From: an uncultured Pseudomonadota bacterium
GTDB lineage: Bacteria > Pseudomonadota > Gammaproteobacteria > Steroidobacterales > Steroidobacteraceae
DNA length: 64,000 nucleotides
Assembly (NCBI GenBank): GCA_903868595.1
Contig: CAIPVV010000042.1
Coordinates: 1 to 64,000 of the forward strand
Direction of reading: 5' to 3'
In this document: piece after piece, positions 1,972-11,148 of the stretch
How the letters are laid out: each line of letters begins with the position of its first letter
How positions within the stretch are numbered: position 1 is the first letter of the stretch
Made by a program: the position numbers and the translations under genes
Notes under the pieces: model-generated
Database searches by the model: none
What the model was told of the DNA's origin: nothing
The model's input: the letters and a program-made list of their open reading frames with translations, nothing else

Positions 1972-2108
1972 GGCTGGCCGCTTCCCCCCGCCCCGCGGGG
2001 GGAATCCCGGCATCGGGGTCCGGAACTGGGCTGCAAGACTGGCGCTAGCGGGTGCCTTGGGACATGATTGCGCCCCCTCCCAAGTATCAACAAAACAGGG
2101 ATTTTCCA

Positions 2109-3782
2109 ATGCCGTTGAGTGATATCGAGATCGCGCGTAAGGCGACGATGCAGCCGATTGAAAACGTTGCCGCCAAGATCGGCATTTCCCGCGACCAGCT
2201 GCTGCAGTACGGCCCGCACAAGGCCAAGCTGTCCCTGGACGCCGTGAAGGCCCTTCAGGGTCGCAAGACCGGCAAGCTGGTCCTCGTGACCGCGATCACG
2301 CCGACTCCGGCAGGCGAAGGCAAGACCACCACGACCGTGGGTCTGGGCGATGGCCTGAACGCCATCGGCAAGAAGGCGGTCATCTGCCTGCGCGAGCCGT
2401 CCCTGGGTCCCTGCTTCGGCATGAAGGGTGGCGCGGCCGGTGGCGGCTACGCCCAGGTCGTGCCGATGGAAGACATCAACCTGCACTTCACGGGTGACTT
2501 CCACGCCATTGCCGCCGCCAACAACCTGCTGGCCGCGATGGTAGACAACCACATCTACTGGGGCAACGAGCTGGGCATCGACACGCGTCGCGTCAGCTGG
2601 AAGCGCGTCGTCGACATGAACGACCGCGCCCTGCGCCAGATCACCTCCTCGCTGGGCGGCCCGGGCAACGGGTTCCCGCGCGAAGACGGCTTCGACATCG
2701 TCGTCGCCTCCGAAGTCATGGCGATCTTCTGCCTGGCCACGGACCTGGAGGACCTCACCCGCCGCCTGGGCAACATCATCGTCGCCCGCACGCGCGACAA
2801 GAAGCCGATCCGCGCCAGGGAACTGCATGCCGATGGCGCCATGGCGGTACTGCTGCGTGACGCGCTCATGCCGAACCTCGTGCAGACGCTGGAAGGTAAC
2901 CCGGCCTTCGTGCACGGCGGCCCGTTCGCCAATATCGCGCACGGTTGCAACTCCGTGATGGCCACCCAGACCGCGCTGCGCCTGGGCGACTACGTGGTGA
3001 CCGAGGCCGGCTTCGGTGCCGACCTGGGCGCCGAGAAGTTCTTCGACATCAAGTGCCGCAAGGCGGGCCTGAAGCCCGACGCCGCGGTCATCGTCGCCAC
3101 GGTGCGGGCGCTCAAGATGCACGGCGGCGTGGCCAAGGACCAGCTGGGTAAGGAAGACCTGGTTGCCCTGAAGAAGGGCTTCGAGAACCTGGCCCGCCAC
3201 GTGGGCAACGTCGCCAAGTTCGGCGTGCCGGCAGTGGTCGCGATCAACAAGTTCATCGCCGATACGGCGGCCGAGCATGAGCTGATCGCCAAGCTGTGCG
3301 CCGAGATCGGCGTGGAGGCCATCCTCTGCTCGCACTGGGCCGACGGCAGCAAGGGCACGGAGAAGCTGGCCCACGCCGTGGTCAAGCTGGCCGAGAGCGG
3401 CAAGGCCGCCTACAAGCCCCTGTACAACGACGAGATGTCGCTGCTGGACAAGGTTCGTACCATCGCCACGCAGACCTATGGCGCGAGCGAGGTCACGGCC
3501 GACCAGAAGGTTCGCGACCTGCTGAAGGACTTCACCGAGGGCGGTTTCGGCCACTACCCGGTCTGCATCGCGAAGACGCAGTACAGCTTCTCGACCGATC
3601 CTTCGCTGAAGGGCGCGCCGACGGGCCACGTGCTGAATATCCGCGACGTGCGCCTGTCGGCCGGTGCGGAGTTCATCGTGGTCATCTGCGGAGAGATCAT
3701 GACGATGCCGGGCCTGCCGCGCGTGCCGGCGGCCAACACGATCCGCATCAACGAGCAGGGCCAGATCGACGGTCTGTTCTAA
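2109..3782 (+). CDS. fhs: formate-tetrahydrofolate ligase
   Basis: A 557-residue formyltetrahydrofolate synthetase that joins formate to tetrahydrofolate using ATP, giving 10-formyl-THF for one-carbon metabolism. The P-loop-like [14 protein letters not shown] lies near residues 60-73. The family blocks [23 protein letters not shown] (split by position about 95-117), [10 protein letters not shown] and [12 protein letters not shown] follow, and the terminal part contains [12 protein letters not shown]. The start was set at [12 protein letters not shown], behind an AGGG at 2097-2100; an earlier in-frame ATG at 2052 lacks family similarity. Length matches the usual 555-560. The gene is monocistronic, followed by a strong hairpin. 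Confidence 0.97.
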
Positions 3783-3812
3783 GCCCTGGCGGATCCTTCG
3801 CTGATGAAGCGG

Positions 3813-3841
3813 TCGATGCCCGGGAGATCCCCGGGCATCGA
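3813..3841 (+). terminator. hairpin after fhs
   Basis: A perfect 12-bp stem (arms 3813-3824 and 3830-3841, core CGATGCCCGGG) with a 5-base loop lies 31 bases after the fhs stop. There is no clear T-run behind it, so it is a candidate terminator or transcript-end stabiliser. Confidence 0.6.
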
Positions 3842-4071
3842 TACGCCATGCGATCTTGCGGCGCTCCTCGTGGTACTCCCCCACCTGCGGCAAAGATCGC
3901 CGATCCCAAGCCGCGCACTGGGCGCTGGATTTCCCATCTGATCCCTACCGCAGCGGTTGCCGTGCGGCCACCGGTCTCGTGCTCGTCGACGTCGTGGCCC
4001 TGGGGCTTGCGGCTTACGGGCCTGCCGTCGCGTACCCCCGGGTATCAGGGATGACCGGTCGGCGCTGGCGA

Positions 4072-4302
4072 GAGGGACCCGGCCAGGGGACTTGGCTCGG
4101 GCTCGTGGGGCCGGAGGAAGCGCTGCACCGTAGCGCAGAAATCGCCCACGGCGCTGGCCTTGAAGACCAGTTCGCGAACGCCCGCCGCAGCCGCCTCGCT
4201 GCGCAACTGCTCGTCGATGAAGCCTGAGGCGATCAACACCGGCAAGTCCGGCCGGACAAGGCGCACTTCGCGCGCCACGTCCAGGCCCGATAGGCCCCGC
4301 AT
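4072..4302 (-). pseudogene. response-regulator receiver domain, C-terminal remnant
   Basis: Minus-strand coding here reads MRGLSGLDVAREVRLVRPDLPVLIASGF followed by EAAAAGVRELVFKAS and ends in VQRFLRP. This matches the second half of a receiver domain of the kind found at the end of hybrid histidine kinases. The phospho-acceptor Asp strand and everything before it are missing; the residues upstream (FTARGSSN) do not match the usual VVTD-NMPG region. The conserved Lys near the end is kept (FKAS). It is most likely the tail of a deleted hybrid kinase stranded at the left edge of the accessory island. The rest of 3842-4523 holds nothing else I can recognise. Confidence 0.6.
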
Positions 4303-4523
4303 GTTCGAGCTGCCCCTGGCAGTGAACATCGCGGTGAAGAAGATCCGCGAAGGCGCCTGGACCCGGCCCAACCGCATGCCACCCAACTGGGCACGCCTGG
4401 CCGCAGTCCCCGAGACCTGCAGCGCTGCATAACGAATAGAGGGTCTATCTTCGGAAAATATTCAAAACCTAAGAACACAGAGCCTAGCGGCCCGTGAATT
4501 GACTTTGAGAGACCTCGAACCCC

Positions 4524-4537
4524 GGAGTTGGCCAAGC
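4524..4537 (+). repeat. 14-bp direct repeat, left copy flanking mazEF
   Basis: GGAGTTGGCCAAGC occurs here and again at 5178-5191, bracketing the mazEF module. The core TTGGCCAA is itself a palindrome. The pair may be a leftover of insertion by recombination, or two copies of a binding site. Confidence 0.75.
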
Positions 4538-4551
4538 AGCAAGGTCCGTGG

Positions 4552-4566
4552 TACAACATTGTTGTA
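4552..4566 (+). promoter_or_regulatory. palindromic operator candidate upstream of mazE
   Basis: TACAACA-T-TGTTGTA is a perfect 7-bp inverted repeat with one central base, 26 bases before the mazE start. AbrB-fold antitoxins commonly bind palindromes of this kind to repress their own operon, so this is the likely MazE or MazEF operator. That role is inferred. Confidence 0.65.
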
Positions 4567-4592
4567 ACGACCACTTGGAATCGGAGAACGAG

Positions 4593-4844
4593 ATGCGAAC
4601 CGTTGTGCGCAAACTGGGAAATTCCCGCGGGATCCTGATCCCGAAGCCCATGCTCGCGCAGGTGGGCCTTGAGACTGGCGAAGCGGAGATCCGCGTGGAG
4701 GGCAATACGATCACGCTGCGGCCGGTGGCGAAGCAGGTTCGCGTCGGCTGGGCCGAGGCTAGTCAGAAGCTCGCCGCTGAGAAGCAGGGCGCTCTGGAAT
4801 GGCCAGAGTTCGCCAACGCTAATGACGCCGAGCTCAAGTGGTGA
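4593..4844 (+). CDS. mazE: MazE-like AbrB-fold antitoxin
   Basis: An 83-residue antitoxin with an N-terminal SpoVT/AbrB swapped-hairpin DNA-binding domain (RTVVRKLGNSRGILIPK, residues 2-18, then a G-E-IRVEGNTITLRP strand pair). A charged C-terminal tail follows, the part that usually wraps around the toxin. The start is chosen at MRTVVRK, 6 bases after GGAG (4583-4586); an upstream in-frame ATG at 4548 would add a Cys-rich segment that overlaps the operator palindrome. Its stop overlaps the toxin start (GTGA), the usual arrangement for co-translated antitoxin-toxin pairs. Autoregulation through 4552-4566 is likely. Confidence 0.9.
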   Translation: MRTVVRKLGNSRGILIPKPMLAQVGLETGEAEIRVEGNTITLRPVAKQVRVGWAEASQKLAAEKQGALEWPEFANANDAELKW

Positions 4845-5158
4845 AACGCGGCGAGGTGTGGCTGGTTGCGCTGGATCCTACCGTCGGCAGCGAGATTCAG
4901 AAGACGCGCCCCGCACTCGTGATTTCGCCGCCGGAGCTGCACGACTTCCTGCGCACGGTAATCGTGGCACCGATGACAACGGCCGGCTTTAGCGCCCCGT
5001 ATCGCGTGCCGGTTGGGTTTCAGGGCAAGAGAGGATTGATACTTCTCGACCAGATCCGCACGGTGGATCAGCAGCGCCTGGTCAAGAAGCTCGGCCGAGT
5101 TCAAGCCAAGACGCTGTCAGCGGCGCTGAAAGTGCTGCAGGAACTGTTCGCCGAGTGA
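4841..5158 (+). CDS. mazF: MazF/PemK-type mRNA interferase toxin
   Basis: A 105-residue ribosome-independent endoribonuclease toxin of the MazF/PemK (CcdB-fold) family. The diagnostic start KRGEVWLVALDPTVGSE is followed by KTRPALVISP, the strand TVIVAPMTTA, and GLILLDQIRTVDQQRLVKKLG, with Arg and Thr positions typical of the RNA-binding cleft. The start is the GTG at 4841, overlapping the mazE stop; a tandem GTG at 4838 is possible. No frameshift or loss of key residues is visible, so the pair looks functional. It sits in a compositionally distinct island between direct repeats, which suggests acquisition. Confidence 0.93.
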   Translation: MKRGEVWLVALDPTVGSEIQKTRPALVISPPELHDFLRTVIVAPMTTAGFSAPYRVPVGFQGKRGLILLDQIRTVDQQRLVKKLGRVQAKTLSAALKVLQELFAE

Positions 5159-5177
5159 AGGCTAGGTAACAGGGCAG

Positions 5178-5191
5178 GGAGTTGGCCAAGC
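5178..5191 (+). repeat. 14-bp direct repeat, right copy flanking mazEF
   Basis: Second exact copy of GGAGTTGGCCAAGC, 654 bases from the first and just after the mazF stop. See 4524-4537. Confidence 0.75.
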
Positions 5192-5235
5192 TTCTAGGGG
5201 AACGAAAGTCCCTAAGAAAAGCGGACAAATAGTCT

Positions 5236-5243
5236 GGTATATT
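5236..5243 (+). promoter_or_regulatory. extended -10 promoter, possibly leaderless
   Basis: TGG followed by TATATT (5238-5243) reads as an extended -10 element. The expected start of transcription, six to seven bases on, falls at about the A of the ATG at 5250, so the transcript would have little or no leader. No clear -35 is present. Confidence 0.45.
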
Positions 5244-5249
5244 TGGAGC

Positions 5250-5783
5250 ATGACGAGCTCCCAGTTCACAGAAACCCTTGAGATCCTCAACCTGAATCAA
5301 ACCGACGCTGCTGCGCTGCTACGCGTGACGCCTCGCGCCGTTCGCCGCTGGCAAAGCGGCGAACAGGCTATACCTGGCACCGTCGTTGAACTACTGGCCG
5401 TCTGGCGTCAGTTGAACGCTGCGAAACTCCCGTGGGGAGCAGATCTGGAATCAGTCTGGTATGGCGACGATGAGCAGATTCGCCTCCACCAGGAGCACGA
5501 CAAGGCGTTGGCAGCACTTCTGCGGCGCGTAAATAAGCGTGGCGGCGGGCGGCCCGAGCTGTGGCGCGTAAACCTGAAGAAGCACGCCGCAGCGCTTGGC
5601 AACATGACGGTGAGTTTCTACAGACTTCGAAGCGGAAGTTTCAGTCTGGCGCACTACCGGTGCGGCGCGGGAGGGCCAGATCCACGTCGAGATCAGACGC
5701 TAATCGAAGACGCAGTTGCCGCATTTGCTGCTGCGGTCAGTAGGGCCGTGTCGTCTCGACCGGATAAGGACTGGGATAAATAG
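5250..5783 (+). CDS. HTH-domain protein of unknown function
   Basis: A 177-residue protein. Residues 8-50 (EILNLNQTDAAALLRVTPRAVRRWQSGEQAIPG) form a clear helix-turn-helix of the Xre/Cro or YdaS type, with the recognition helix near TPRAVRRWQ. Residues 60-177 are not a family I recognise. They include a basic stretch (RRVNKRGGGRPELWRVNLKKHA) and an Ala-rich C-terminal helix ending in acidic and basic residues. It may be a phage- or island-type regulator. GGAG lies only two bases from the ATG, so translation may be leaderless. It follows mazF on the same strand with 91 bases between. Confidence 0.7.
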   Translation: MTSSQFTETLEILNLNQTDAAALLRVTPRAVRRWQSGEQAIPGTVVELLAVWRQLNAAKLPWGADLESVWYGDDEQIRLHQEHDKALAALLRRVNKRGGGRPELWRVNLKKHAAALGNMTVSFYRLRSGSFSLAHYRCGAGGPDPRRDQTLIEDAVAAFAAAVSRAVSSRPDKDWDK

Positions 5784-5884
5784 ACGGTTGAGACAGGTTG
5801 CGGGCCGCGAACGTGACTACGTCAACAACGTAGCGGATGTGGCACAACTTTGTTTACAGCTGAGCAGATCAGGAGCGCCAACGC

Positions 5885-6091
5885 ATGGAAAATAAGCAGA
5901 AGCGCACCAAACTTACGCAAGCGCATTTGCGTTCCGAACTGACGGCCGCTCGCCAAGCCGTCAGTGATGCCGCAAACCGCGGAGAACCGGCGGAGACGAT
6001 GCTTTGGCTGAGGACTCGCGCCCTGCATCTATGGCAGAGGCTCGAAACATCGAACCGCAACGGTAACAAGATCGCAGAAGCGGTCGCTTGA
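5885..6091 (+). CDS. small hypothetical protein
   Basis: A 68-residue product with no recognisable family. It is rich in Lys, Arg and Ala, has no membrane segment, and its heptad-like Ala/Leu pattern (LRSELTAARQAVSDAANR) suggests helices. Support for coding comes from AGGAG at 5871-5875, nine bases before the ATG, and from a complete frame in otherwise short-frame DNA. A short inverted repeat (CTACGT-CAACA-ACGTAG, 5817-5833) lies upstream. The function is unknown and the call is moderate. Confidence 0.45.
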   Translation: MENKQKRTKLTQAHLRSELTAARQAVSDAANRGEPAETMLWLRTRALHLWQRLETSNRNGNKIAEAVA

Positions 6092-6246
6092 AACTGATGA
6101 GGTGCGCCTACTTGGATCCGATTCATCCTGCATACGGCCGAATCGGCCAGCATCTCAAACAGTGTGGCTTCGGAGGCTGTCGTGGTCGCGTCGAGGTTGA
6201 CGATCGAGAGTTACATCCTGATCGCGAAACACCGAGGTCTAAGCTC

Positions 6247-7160
6247 ATGAAGGCGCAGCTCGTTTTGCTTCTGTACTCATTCATTTCGGCAACAGCGTAC
6301 GGTGCATCCAGCTACATAGGTATAGATGGCAAGGAGCATGCGTACGCAATACAACCGCAGTTCAAGCGGGCATACCCATTTAGCGAAGGCCTTGCGGTTG
6401 TCGGCGTGTCCCAATCCGCGGACTGGCGGGAATACAAGTTCGGCTTTATCAATCACGTCGGGCAATGGGTTATTCAACCGCAATTTGATGAAGCGTCAAA
6501 ATTTTCCGGTGGGCTTGCAAGAGTTGGCTTCTGCGGCGGCTACAACAAAACAAACACGAACGACATTTCACGCGACTGCAAGTACGGGTACATAGATAAG
6601 GCTGGTCGATTCGTGATCAACCCGCAGTTCGATTACGCTGAATCGTTCCATCTGGGTCTTGCAACAGTCGAGAATAAGGCCTCGGATGGAAGCTGGCTGC
6701 CCAGCACTTACATCGATGCCAGTTGAAAGGAGATGAAAGAGGATCCTCGGCCGAAAATTTTTGCAGAAGGGCTCGAGCCATTTGCGTCGGGAGATTTTCC
6801 GAATTGGAAATACGGGTACCGGGATGGTTCTGGTTCGGTGGTGATAAATCCTCAGTTTGAATATGCATCTAAATTTTCCGAAGGCTTGGCGTCAGTTCGC
6901 ATCTCCGCTGGCCGCGAAGGGTATATAGACAAACGAGGATCGCTCGTTATTAGTCCTACGTTTGCTGCTGCTTGGGACTTTCGGGGGGGTTGGCCGCCGC
7001 AGCTAGAGCGTCACAGTCAGGAGGGGATCCAAAGTGGGGTTTCATCGATAAGCGGGGATCGTTTGTGATCCCACCGCAGTTCGATGACACAAATAGCTTC
7101 TATGATGGATTGGCGTTGGTAAAGGTTGGCGACTTCTACGGGTACATTCGTAAGGAGTAG
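6247..7160 (+). pseudogene. WG-repeat secreted protein, broken by a stop and a frameshift
   Basis: The product begins with a signal peptide (MKAQLVLLLYSFISATAYGAS) and then shows about six WG-type repeats, each of the form KYGYIDKAGRFVINPQFDYAESF-GLA. These are predicted beta-rich repeats of poorly known binding function. An in-frame TGA at 6724-6726 interrupts repeat three. A one-base deletion near 6982, just before seven Gs (6983-6989), moves the last repeats (KWGFIDKRGSFVIPPQFDD) into another frame that ends at 7160. Both lesions sit inside uniformly conserved repeats, so the gene was recently intact. Base composition is clearly more AT-rich than the flanks, which suggests horizontal origin. 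Confidence 0.8.
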
Positions 7161-7164
7161 GAAA

Positions 7165-7743
7165 CTACAGACCGAACAGTCTCCTATCATCCTGCCGGGT
7201 CAGCGCCTCATCCAGCATCGCCCGCAGCTTCTTCTCGTCGAACTTTCCCTGTTCGATCCTGGCCAGGATGACCGCGCCGATCAGGATCTTGCGCCGCGTG
7301 TCCTCCCGCCGCGCGAGCTTGGACTCCACGAACCGCTGACGATTCTCGATCCGGACCTCGCGGGCCTTGAGCTGCTCGAGCTTGAGCCGCGTCGCCTCGA
7401 TCTTGGCTTCGAGCGGCGGCTTACCTGAGCGGGCAGGGCCCTGGGGCCGGGTGATCAGCACATCCTCCGGCCCCCAGTGGGCAGACGCCTGCACCGGGCC
7501 GCCGCCCTGGTGGGCGGCCCACAGGGAACCGGCCGGGTGGCCGGACTGCAGCAGACGGGTCGCCGGGTGCAGTTCGAAGCGTGCTCGCAGCAGCTGCTCG
7601 GGGCTGGAATGCGCGAGGTCGGTTGTGGCCACGGGATCGGCATCGGCCGCGGCCCAGGCCGCGCTCCAGGCGATCTCCACGCGCGCCACATCCGGCAGGT
7701 AGGGCAGGGTGGCGGGCCTGACCGCCGGCGCTGTCGCCGCCAC
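7165..7743 (-). CDS. chimeric ORF: HvfC C-terminal fragment fused to mobilization-protein tail
   Basis: A 192-codon open frame made of unrelated pieces. Residues 1-12 are antisense to the NrsF remnant. Residues 13 to about 95 (LPYLPDVARVEIAW...ATDLAHSSPEQLLRARFELHPATRLL...SLWAAHQGG...EDVLITRPQ) match the C-terminal domain of HvfC/DUF2063 proteins. From about residue 103 (EAKIEATRLKLEQLKARE...DTRRKILIGAVILARIE...LRAMLDEALTRQDDRRLFGL) it matches the C-terminus of small plasmid mobilization proteins. Each donor is truncated, and the in-frame join is probably accidental. Whether it is translated is unknown. It marks the right boundary of the accessory island. Confidence 0.6.
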   Translation of the reverse strand: MAATAPAVRPATLPYLPDVARVEIAWSAAWAAADADPVATTDLAHSSPEQLLRARFELHPATRLLQSGHPAGSLWAAHQGGGPVQASAHWGPEDVLITRPQGPARSGKPPLEAKIEATRLKLEQLKAREVRIENRQRFVESKLARREDTRRKILIGAVILARIEQGKFDEKKLRAMLDEALTRQDDRRLFGL

Positions 7744-7864
7744 GTTCTATGCCCTGCATTGCACGGACGATAGCCCGCGGTTCGTCGGCCTCTGGTACGT
7801 GCTGGCGCGGGCGATCGTGACCTTGGCCGGCGCTCTGGGCGGATCCCGGCTGCTGCGCTGGTAG
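7706..7864 (+). pseudogene. NrsF (DUF1109) anti-sigma factor, C-terminal remnant
   Basis: Read on the plus strand, the frame gives VAGLTAGAVAATFYALHC, then RFVGLWYVLARAIVTLAGALGGSRLLRW and a stop at 7862-7864. This is the last transmembrane segments of NrsF/DUF1109 membrane anti-sigma factors, including the ALHC and LLRW signatures. All earlier membrane segments are missing. It directly abuts the HvfC fragment on the opposite strand, which fits one deletion that removed a divergent hvf/sigma-factor locus and left the two gene tails. Confidence 0.65.
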
Positions 7865-7875
7865 ACTCCGGGGCC

Positions 7876-9093
7876 ATGAAAAGCGCCCCTTCCGATACCT
7901 CGCCCCTGGGCCTGAGCGCCGCCGAGGCGACGGCCCTGCCGGTCCTGCTGGCCCTGAGCTTCTCGCACTTTCTCAACGACATGCTGCAGTCGTTGCTGCC
8001 GGCGCTCTACCCCATGCTGAAGACGCAGTTCAGCCTGAATTTCAGCCAGATCGGCTTGCTGACGCTCACCTTCCAGCTCACCGCCTCGATCCTCCAGCCG
8101 ATCGTTGGCATCTATACGGACCGCAAGGCACGGCCCTATTCGCTGGCGGTGGGCATGGCGTGCACGGGCAGCGGCTTGCTGCTGCTCTCCTGGGCGCACA
8201 GCTTCCCGGTGCTGCTCCTGGCCGCTTCGCTGATCGGCACGGGTTCCTCCATCTTCCATCCAGAGTCCTCGCGGGTTGCGCGCCTGGCTTCCGGTGGGCG
8301 GCATGGCTTCGCGCAGTCGGTCTTCCAGGTTGGCGGCAACATCGGTTCCTCCATCGGCCCCTTGCTCGCCGCCTTCATCGTGTTGCCGCGGGGCCAGGGC
8401 AGCATCGCCTGGTTCTGCATGGCGGCGATCCTGGCGATGATCGTGCTGACGCGCGTGGGCGCCTGGTACGGGGCGCGGGTGAAGGCACGCGCAGCCCGCC
8501 GGCAGGTGCAGGCCGGCACGCTGCCGCGGCGGCAGGTCGCGGGGATCATCGCCGTACTCCTGCTGTTGATCTTCTCCAAGTATTTCTACCTGGCGAGTCT
8601 CTCCAGCTACTACACGTTCTACCTGATCAGCCAATTCGGCGTGAGCGTGCGCACCGCGCAGCTGCTGCTGTTCGTGTTCCTGGGATCCGTGGCGGCCGGC
8701 ACGCTGCTGGGCGGGCACATCGGCGATCGCGTCGGCCGCAAATACGTGATCTGGGGCTCCATCCTGGGCGTGCTGCCCTTCACGCTGCTGCTGCCGCACG
8801 CGAGCCTGGTATGGACCGCTGTGCTGACGGTGCCGATCGGCATGATCCTGGCCTCGGCTTTCGCCGCCATCGTCGTCTATGCGCAGGAGTTGATGCCGGG
8901 CCGCGTCGGAACCGTGGCGGGGCTGTTCTTCGGCTTTGCCTTCGGCATGGGTGGCATCGGTGCCGCGGTACTGGGCCAGCTCGCCGATCGCACGAGCATC
9001 CAGTTTGTCTATCAGCTCTGCGCCTACTTGCCGCTGTTGGGGCTTGCTGCAGCCTGGCTGCCCGACTTGAGAAAGCAGCCGTCGCGCGTGTAA
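7876..9093 (+). CDS. Fsr-like MFS exporter (fosmidomycin resistance family)
   Basis: A 405-residue, 12-helix major facilitator protein resembling Fsr. Signatures include SFSHFLNDMLQSLLPALYP in helix 1, QIGLLTLTFQLTASILQP, VGIYTDRKARPYSLAVGM (the helix 2-3 loop motif), GTGSSIFHPESSRVARLASGGRHGFAQS and GGNIGSSIGPLLAA. The second half carries GGHIGDRVGRKYVIWGS. It most likely exports small drugs or metabolites by proton antiport across the inner membrane. The start lies 11 bases after the NrsF remnant's stop, so it may depend on that locus's former transcript or on its own promoter. Confidence 0.88.
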   Translation: MKSAPSDTSPLGLSAAEATALPVLLALSFSHFLNDMLQSLLPALYPMLKTQFSLNFSQIGLLTLTFQLTASILQPIVGIYTDRKARPYSLAVGMACTGSGLLLLSWAHSFPVLLLAASLIGTGSSIFHPESSRVARLASGGRHGFAQSVFQVGGNIGSSIGPLLAAFIVLPRGQGSIAWFCMAAILAMIVLTRVGAWYGARVKARAARRQVQAGTLPRRQVAGIIAVLLLLIFSKYFYLASLSSYYTFYLISQFGVSVRTAQLLLFVFLGSVAAGTLLGGHIGDRVGRKYVIWGSILGVLPFTLLLPHASLVWTAVLTVPIGMILASAFAAIVVYAQELMPGRVGTVAGLFFGFAFGMGGIGAAVLGQLADRTSIQFVYQLCAYLPLLGLAAAWLPDLRKQPSRV

Positions 9094-9099
9094 CAGGAC

Positions 9100-9134
9100 A
9101 CTGGCGCCGGCGTCGCGGTAGCCACAGCGCCAGT
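9100..9134 (+). terminator. hairpin after the Fsr-like gene
   Basis: ACTGGCGC (9100-9107) pairs with GCGCCAGT (9127-9134) across a 19-base loop, starting 7 bases past the stop. There is no T-run. It is a weak terminator candidate. Confidence 0.4.
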
Positions 9135-9681
9135 TGAGGGGCCTGTGGCCTGGGCCAGGTCCGGGGGGCGCCCAGCCAACCGCACGGTTTGGTTTAACCC
9201 GCGGGTCGCATCGGGCGCCCGGATCCGCAGTCCGTGATCTCTTGCCCGCCCTATCCGTCGGCGGGCTGCTGCCAGCGGGTGCGCGCGGGCACTGCCCTGC
9301 GCGCCGGAAGGGCCTCTCGCAAAATCCATCCGACGTAGCGCGCCGGCGTGGGCAGGACCGCGCGAGAGTTCCGTGACTTGCTTCACGATACCGGCGCGCC
9401 GCCCACCGTTACCATCGCCGCACTGGTCTTGAATGCTTGGTGCGTTTGGGGCATCGGATCCGGCCCGTCGCGTCTCACTATTACCCAGACGGGCAGGCAG
9501 GGCCTTCCTGTGGCGTCCCGGCTGTCGACTCCATGCGTGTGGGGTATCGGCGTTTTTTGCTTGGCAACCCAGAAATTCCGATGCCCCGTCAACCGACTCG
9601 CCGCGTAACAGTTCAAGCCGGTGATTTCGATAAGAACTGCCGTCTTCGTGCAGCGCCTCACGACTCTGAAGGGAGCCTGGA
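9135..9681. other. intergenic stretch, no gene recognised
   Basis: All six frames are short or lack any recognisable motif. The tail (9437-9681) can be read as an 82-residue frame with no family match. No promoter, tRNA or repeat stands out. It is probably degraded DNA continuous with the broken gene that follows. Confidence 0.5.
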
Positions 9682-10198
9682 ATGAGCCTACTCAAGAACC
9701 TCGGGATAACGGTGTTGCTGGCTGTCACTAGCGCCCTGCTGCTGGCGGCCACCACCACCTTCGCGCTCGCGTAAACCCCTGCGGCTGATCCGGCCCTTGC
9801 GGCCGGTAGGGCAGCAGGTGCGGCGGATAAGGCCGCTGTCGTCGCCGACGTCGCGGCCCGCAAGGCCGACAAGGCGTGCGTGACGGCCCAGGGCTCGACG
9901 CCGCACAGGTACTCGGGCGCTCTTAAGCGTCGGTCACCCTGGCACAGGCCTGTGCCCCGGGGTGCCCGACCTGGACGTCAACGGCGATCCCAACCTGATA
10001 CCGGGGCCTGGCGCGGCCAGCGGCACCAACCCCAAGAACCGGGGCCCTGCGCCGGCGAAGGGCTCCAGCCCCGACCTGGACGATGGCGCTGCCGCAGTCC
10101 GCGGGGACATCTCGGCGAACGCAGCGGCGCCGTTGGGGTTCGAGCTTGCAGCGAAGGCGCAATTCGGCACAGGCGACAAGAACCCGGGGCCGCGGTGA
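9682..10198 (+). pseudogene. possible broken small secreted protein
   Basis: An ATG at 9682 with GGGAG upstream opens a 30-residue signal-peptide-like sequence (LLKNLGITVLLAVTSALLLAATTTFALA). A TAA at 9772-9774 follows exactly at the expected cleavage region. The same frame continues after the stop with an Ala-rich run (DPALAAGRAAGAADKAAVVADVAARKADKAC). A different frame from about 9962 reads DLDVNGDPNLIPGPGAASGTNP. Together these look like one secreted, low-complexity protein with a stop and a frameshift. No family is recognised, and chance in GC-rich DNA is possible. Confidence 0.35.
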
Positions 10199-10548
10199 CG
10201 GCGCCGACCACGGCGCGGTGAAGATCGGCGCGCACCGGCCGCGCTGGGGCTGACGCTGGGGGGCGACGGGGTCCCTGCGGCCCGGGCCGCGGCCGCTGCA
10301 TCCCGCTCAACAGGAACACTGTGGACTCTTTGCCAGGCGGACCCTGCGGGTGAGCGACGTCTGCTCGGGTCGGCAGTGCGGACGGCCAAGGCCGCCGTCA
10401 CGCGGGAGGTGTCTGCCTGTTTGACCGGACCGCTGGGGAAGGCTGTGCGGGTGCAGGTCCAGGGGCTGAAGCGCCTGGCTTACGCAAGCCCAGGCCTGGG
10501 TGGCGGGGCGATGGTTAAATCCTTGTTCCTGCGGGGTGCCGGAACGGC

Positions 10549-10570
10549 GGCCCGGCCATCTGGCCGGGCC
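10549..10570. terminator. perfect GC hairpin, first of a tandem pair
   Basis: GGCCCGGCC (10549-10557) and GGCCGGGCC (10562-10570) form a perfect 9-bp stem with an ATCT loop. It lies 66 bases beyond the stop of the minus-strand DUF1993 gene. It probably helps end that operon's transcript. The preceding stretch 10199-10548 holds nothing recognisable. Confidence 0.55.
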
Positions 10571-10582
10571 AGTTTGCCCGGC

Positions 10583-10614
10583 CCGCTCTGGCAGCCGCTA
10601 GGCCGCCAGAGCGG
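10583..10614. terminator. second hairpin of the tandem pair
   Basis: CCGCTCTGGC (10583-10592) pairs perfectly with GCCAGAGCGG (10605-10614) over a 12-base loop, 21 bases from the DUF1993 stop. It is the likelier primary terminator of the long minus-strand operon, although no T-run is seen. Confidence 0.6.
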
Positions 10615-10635
10615 ACGTAGGCGGGTCGTCCGCAA

Positions 10636-11148
10636 CTAGCCGATGTAGTCGCGCTTGCCAATTTCCAGGCCATTGTGGCGCAGCAGCGCGTAGACCATCG
10701 AGTAGTGGAAGTAGACGTTCGGCGTGCCGAAGCCCTGCAGGTAGTCCAGACCCACGAATTCCACGACATGCTGGTTACCCGGCGGGCCCAGCTTCAGGGT
10801 GATCTGGCGCGTCTCGGCGCCATTGAACTGCTCGGCTTTTAACGTGGCCAGGTAGTCCCGGGTCTTGATGACGCGGGCGCGAAGCTCCGCGAAGGTCGCC
10901 TCGTTGTCCTCGAACTTCGGGGGCTCAACGCCCGCCAGGCGGGCAGCCGAGCCCTTGGCCATGTCGGTGGTGATCTGCACCTGGCGGATCAGGTGGAACA
11001 TGTCGGGCGACAGGCGCGCCAGCAGCAGCGCGTTGTGGTCGAGCTTCTTCTCGTCGGCCCAGGCCACGGCCTTGCCGAGGATCGTGTCGAGGTTCGTCAG
11101 GACGCGGGTGTAGACAGGCACGCAAGCGGTGTACATCGAAAGGCTCAT
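10636..11148 (-). CDS. DUF1993 family protein
   Basis: A 170-residue protein of the DUF1993 family, a mostly helical, DinB-like fold of unknown role. It starts MSLSMYTACVPVYTRVLTNLDTIL and contains RLSPDMFHLIRQVQITTDMAKGSAARLAG and FYFHYSMVYALLRHNGLEIGKRDYIG-like C-terminal blocks (here VYFHYSMVYALLRHNG) that are typical of the family. GAGGAAA lies just before the ATG. It follows apaH on the same strand with 50 bases between and is probably the last gene of the lptD-surA-to-apaH series. Confidence 0.88.
   Translation of the reverse strand: MSLSMYTACVPVYTRVLTNLDTILGKAVAWADEKKLDHNALLLARLSPDMFHLIRQVQITTDMAKGSAARLAGVEPPKFEDNEATFAELRARVIKTRDYLATLKAEQFNGAETRQITLKLGPPGNQHVVEFVGLDYLQGFGTPNVYFHYSMVYALLRHNGLEIGKRDYIG

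Follow-up and report, generated by a model that had tools for sequence, protein, structure and literature searches.

How did pieces of an hvfC gene, an nrsF gene and a plasmid-type mobilization gene come to lie end to end between positions 7165 and 7864 of the window (the whole 64,000-nucleotide stretch of DNA that was analysed), and does the reading frame that runs through them have a function? The first-pass annotation, made from the sequence letters alone, read the locus as the scar of one deletion that recorded both the insertion of an island and the loss of a metal/chalkophore-type locus. Comparison with relatives keeps the loss and revises the rest, since the scar contains two deletion junctions, the second one lying between the hvfC piece and the mobilization gene (Table 1). 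The locus, which lies between two housekeeping genes, is made up of broken remains of a copper-buffering (bufferin) gene cluster and a mobile element that deletions have brought into contact. It is no new system but an ordinary scar of gene decay. Specifically, it is very probably a decaying and functionless trace of a divergent Buf1-type bufferin locus and of a mobilizable element, both lost by deletions in a variable slot of the chromosome.

Table 1. Features of the scar and of its surroundings, in window positions.
Feature	Position	Strand	Description
Variable block holding the scar	3783..10635		Between fhs (2052-3782) and a DUF1993-like gene (10636-11148)
Broken WG-repeat gene	6088..7161	+	PF14903, E 4.4e-27 for the first piece; convergent with mob
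Accessory mobilization gene, mob (MobC/MobS-like, weakly DUF3847)	7165..7431	-	Nearly whole, stop kept, own start codon missing
192-codon open frame	7165..7743	-	nrsF antisense, hvfC piece and mob
Junction 2	7425..7441		hvfC homology ends at TRPQ and mob homology starts; expected divergent relaxase missing
hvfC/bufC remnant	7441..7707	-	Internal codons 105-193 of about 253; 57% identical to G236 HvfC, gap-free
Junction 1	7707..7709		hvfC homology gives way to nrsF homology within about 3 bp (codon-level comparison)
nrsF remnant	7709..7864	+	Last 51 codons and stop of an anti-sigma-F factor gene; PF06532
Intact MFS transporter gene	7876..9093	+	PF07690; begins 11 bp past the nrsF stop

Matched separately, the three segments each find the family first assigned to them, namely HvfC, NrsF and Mob. 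In the search of the window, the 89 hvfC codons (7707-7441, minus strand) give a gap-free alignment with the HvfC of the relative G236 (253 residues) over its residues 105-193 (57%, E 2.5e-21), and full-length, HvfC-sized frames that match the same piece occur in 16 of 60 relatives. The piece had been taken for the C-terminal tail of the protein and is instead internal: residues 1-104 are gone, and with them the DUF2063 domain (residues 7-96 of the intact HvfC), the homology stops at TRPQ (7441), and the 60 residues by which the G236 protein runs beyond this motif are missing together with doxX. No Pfam match to DUF2063 (PF09836) is found in the piece, which is homologous to the part that follows this domain in the G236 HvfC, whose gene adjoins those of an MNIO enzyme and a DUF2282 precursor; moreover, neither the 3' end of hvfC nor doxX has left a trace elsewhere in the window. 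The 89 codons are free of stops and indels, so that decay is either recent or weak.

On the opposite strand, positions 7709-7861, with the stop extending to 7864, match PF06532 over profile positions 154-204 of 204 (E 2.4e-19; 70.4 bits, above the curated cut-off of 26.8), with 63% identity to the nrsF of G236 and 57% to that of G008, and a genome search returned this piece as the sole NrsF match of the genome. Because only 51 residues are left of a membrane protein of ~210 residues, the piece is classed as a remnant. Both genes lack their fronts, as initially described, but the loss from NrsF amounts to three quarters of its length and not half. An apparent extension of the NrsF homology back to 7598 in the genome search was rejected: the alignment runs on past a TAG into the antisense of hvfC, and the true start is at about 7709. 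The abutment of minus-strand HvfC codons and plus-strand C-terminal NrsF codons is confirmed at the level of single codons: the codon of the first L of LPYLPDV in hvfC begins at 7707 and the VAGL of nrsF starts at 7709, with no filler before it.

Bufferins are described as copper-sequestering peptides. Their Buf1 clusters combine the genes of a DUF2282 precursor, an MNIO enzyme, its DUF2063 partner and DoxX with those of a sigma factor and NrsF, the last two of which are not found in Buf2 clusters (PMC12452194), and the studied example is the sigF-nrsF operon of Caulobacter with the sigF-dependent operon CC3254-CC3257 (DUF2282, DUF692, DUF2063 and DoxX; PMC3511200). The gene set of the Caulobacter crescentus Buf1 locus (CC3252-CC3257), with its DUF2282 precursor, DUF692/MNIO enzyme, DUF2063 partner, DoxX, sigma factor and NrsF, is shared by the loci of the relatives of the window genome, which have a divergent layout. 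Intact loci with hvfC-hvfB-hvfA on one strand and sigF-nrsF on the other are present in at least four relatives, G236, G024, G007 and G008, the last two being congeners of the window genome. On contig C334 of G236, doxX, hvfC, hvfB and hvfA occupy one strand and sigF and nrsF the other, and Pfam confirms DUF2063, MbnB_TglH_ChrH, DUF2282, sigma-70 regions 2 and 4 and NrsF; G024 and G007 have the same layout, and the G008 locus is split over two contigs, which share the first 39 codons of hvfC.

Alignment with the intact loci joins the two break points of the window through the missing genes, over 2,619 bp in G236, 2,658 bp in G024 and 2,643 bp in G007. Since the break points are about 2.62-2.66 kb apart in intact loci, one deletion explains junction 1, as the first-pass annotation had proposed, and such a deletion within a divergent hvfABC/sigF-nrsF locus is well supported by these alignments. 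Of the gene set of the Buf1 locus of Caulobacter crescentus, all that the window keeps is an internal stretch of the DUF2063 partner gene and the final quarter of nrsF. Two genes expected in a Buf1 locus, those of the DUF2282 precursor and of the PF05114 MNIO enzyme, occur together in G236 and not in the window genome: hvfA and hvfB have no match in the window, and HvfB (PF05114) has none in the rest of the assembly, which is 93.9% complete, so that its absence from the genome is not absolute. By comparison with its relatives, the lost locus has the gene content of the known Buf1 bufferin/sigF-NrsF type, a designation that is more exact than the close chalkophore type first suggested. Of the 9 genomes of the genus that were examined, 2 have HvfB (PF05114); the six remaining congeners also lack matches to NrsF and HvfC. 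The scar documents that one lineage has lost a copper-buffering RiPP locus, which two of the nine examined species keep.

At the left side of the scar, the Mob piece (7168 to about 7431, minus strand) has matches to small mobilization proteins of 398 plasmids, in most cases over at least 80% of the query, and is up to 68% identical to the proteins of relatives. Plasmid and chromosomal relatives match it over nearly their full length, and it is thus not merely the C-terminus that had been described, but nearly the whole gene with the start missing: its homology starts within about 6 codons of TRPQ and ends at its own stop at 7165, and the first in-frame start-type codon lies 38 codons in. The 88 residues correspond to nearly the whole of a MobC/MobS accessory protein, of the kind encoded beside a MobA/MobL relaxase. 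A relaxase was found in 10 of the 16 examined mob loci of relatives, divergent from mob in all ten, with a MobA_MobL Pfam match in each of the five tested. By this layout, the relaxase would begin to the right of mob, exactly at the hvfC piece; the MobA/MobL relaxases of relatives have no match in the window, where the accessory mob is present and the relaxase is missing. The window copy therefore differs from the known arrangement in lacking both its start codon and the relaxase and in being fused in frame to the hvfC piece. The homologue closest to this mob, in G068 (68%), seems to be a chromosomal gene standing alone, with no relaxase within the stretch examined.

The missing start and the missing divergent relaxase of mob indicate that the left junction also involves a deletion. 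The simplest explanation is a second deletion that extended into hvfC from the side of the relaxase and mob, although the junction may have formed by a rearrangement with more steps. A plain insertion of the mobile element into hvfC was rejected, and with it the island insertion of the first-pass annotation in its simple form, as the HvfC C-terminus and doxX are not found beyond the element genes. The ancestral slot would then have held doxX-hvfC-hvfB-hvfA on one strand and sigF-nrsF on the other, together with a mobilizable element. With one event per junction, one deletion of about 2.6 kb would have taken hvfB, hvfA and sigF entirely, with the first 104 codons of hvfC and the first ~160 of nrsF; another would have removed doxX, the relaxase, the final 60 codons of hvfC and the start codon of mob, leaving hvfC and mob in one frame by chance. 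The same scar is found in none of the relatives, and intermediate stages were not seen. The locus resembles other remains of genes that illegitimate deletion has left in variable genomic slots, in that truncated genes abut without an insert and the content of the slot differs between congeners; it differs from them only by the chance in-frame fusion.

The scar sits in a block of 6.9 kb between fhs and the DUF1993-like gene. In the congeners in which the slot was compared (G003, G001, G006, G002 and G008), these two genes lie next to each other, the second being followed by apaH, apaG and rsmA, and their matches are separated by 96 to about 2,070 bp. By translation, the slot holds an ATPase-like gene in G002, a dioxygenase-like gene in G001 and a peptidase-like gene in G008, and nothing convincing is shared with the 6.9 kb of the window beyond the gene ends. 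Judged from these comparisons, the whole block is variable within the genus; the scar documents a variable gene slot and opens no long-standing question. This variability has a bearing on where the deletions took place. The pieces may have been joined elsewhere and brought into the slot as an already truncated block by horizontal transfer or recombination, in line with a cargo that differs in each congener, with the position of the G008 bufferin locus outside the slot, and with the MFS gene, which has no close homologue in the congeners and shares 70-71% identity with copies from other genera of the family. However, nothing positively indicates arrival in a truncated state, and none of the 217 family genomes offers a donor with the same junctions, which makes this origin conceivable but rather unlikely. 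No nrsF or hvf genes lie near the other MFS loci examined, so that the adjacency of nrsF and MFS is probably recent, and the ancestral nrsF-MFS operon that the short gap between the two genes might suggest is unsupported.

A false join of pieces from different loci or organisms would also produce abrupt junctions, and two of them occur here within 300 bp of a draft assembly of 61 contigs. Such a chimera is judged improbable, since the missing halves (hvfB and the fronts of nrsF and hvfC), which a misjoin would leave elsewhere in the assembly, are not there; moreover, G+C and third-position G+C suit the surroundings, and the changes unique to the window copies suggest a period of relaxed constraint. 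Specifically, with G236 and G008 as intact references, the changes unique to the remnants number 16, 32 and 30 at codon positions 1, 2 and 3, and those unique to the two intact copies 33, 20 and 45. In this small sample, positions 2 and 3 differ (Fisher p 0.013), and positions 1+2 versus 3 do not differ significantly (p 0.20). The excess of second-position changes fits relaxed constraint after truncation of the genes, within the limits of a small test.

The 192-codon frame is open from a GTG at 7743 to 7165 and comprises 12 codons antisense to nrsF, 89 of HvfC and about 85-90 of Mob. HvfC does run in phase into Mob, as first described, and the frame is probably a chance fusion that would not be usefully expressed. 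It is very doubtful that it represents a new functional protein built from HvfC and Mob parts, even though it is open through all three parts and its mob portion still varies mostly at third positions with respect to G068: its first 12 codons read nrsF in antisense, a search of 7100-7900 gave no sigma-70-like promoter, the mob part lacks a start codon of its own, and open frames are common in GC-rich DNA, several unrelated overlapping frames of similar length being present here. A copy of the same frame conserved in relatives had been named at the outset as evidence against a scar, and the HvfC-Mob fusion is found in no other genome of the family. Apparent second cases in G104 and G105 (matches over query positions 61-191) proved to be Mob proteins with chance upstream similarity. 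That the fusion is expressed and now forms a small new protein, combining a fragment of a RiPP partner with a mobilization protein, is hardly credible, and annotators should mark the frame as a pseudogene fusion.

Other parts of the block were also inspected. The stretch at 9400-9620, past the MFS gene, is rich in palindromes; as a candidate genome-wide repeat it was discarded, being present in a single copy in this genome. Another gene tail, the C-terminal half of a response-regulator receiver domain without its front, lies at about 4126-4305 on the minus strand (PF00072, E 9.9e-06, profile positions 51-110), and the WG-repeat gene (6088-7161, plus strand) is interrupted by a TGA at 6724-6726 and then by a later change of frame. 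The block also holds a gene for an HTH protein and, at 4548-5158 on the plus strand, an apparently intact MazEF-type pair of overlapping genes for a MazE-like antitoxin and a PemK/MazF-like toxin.
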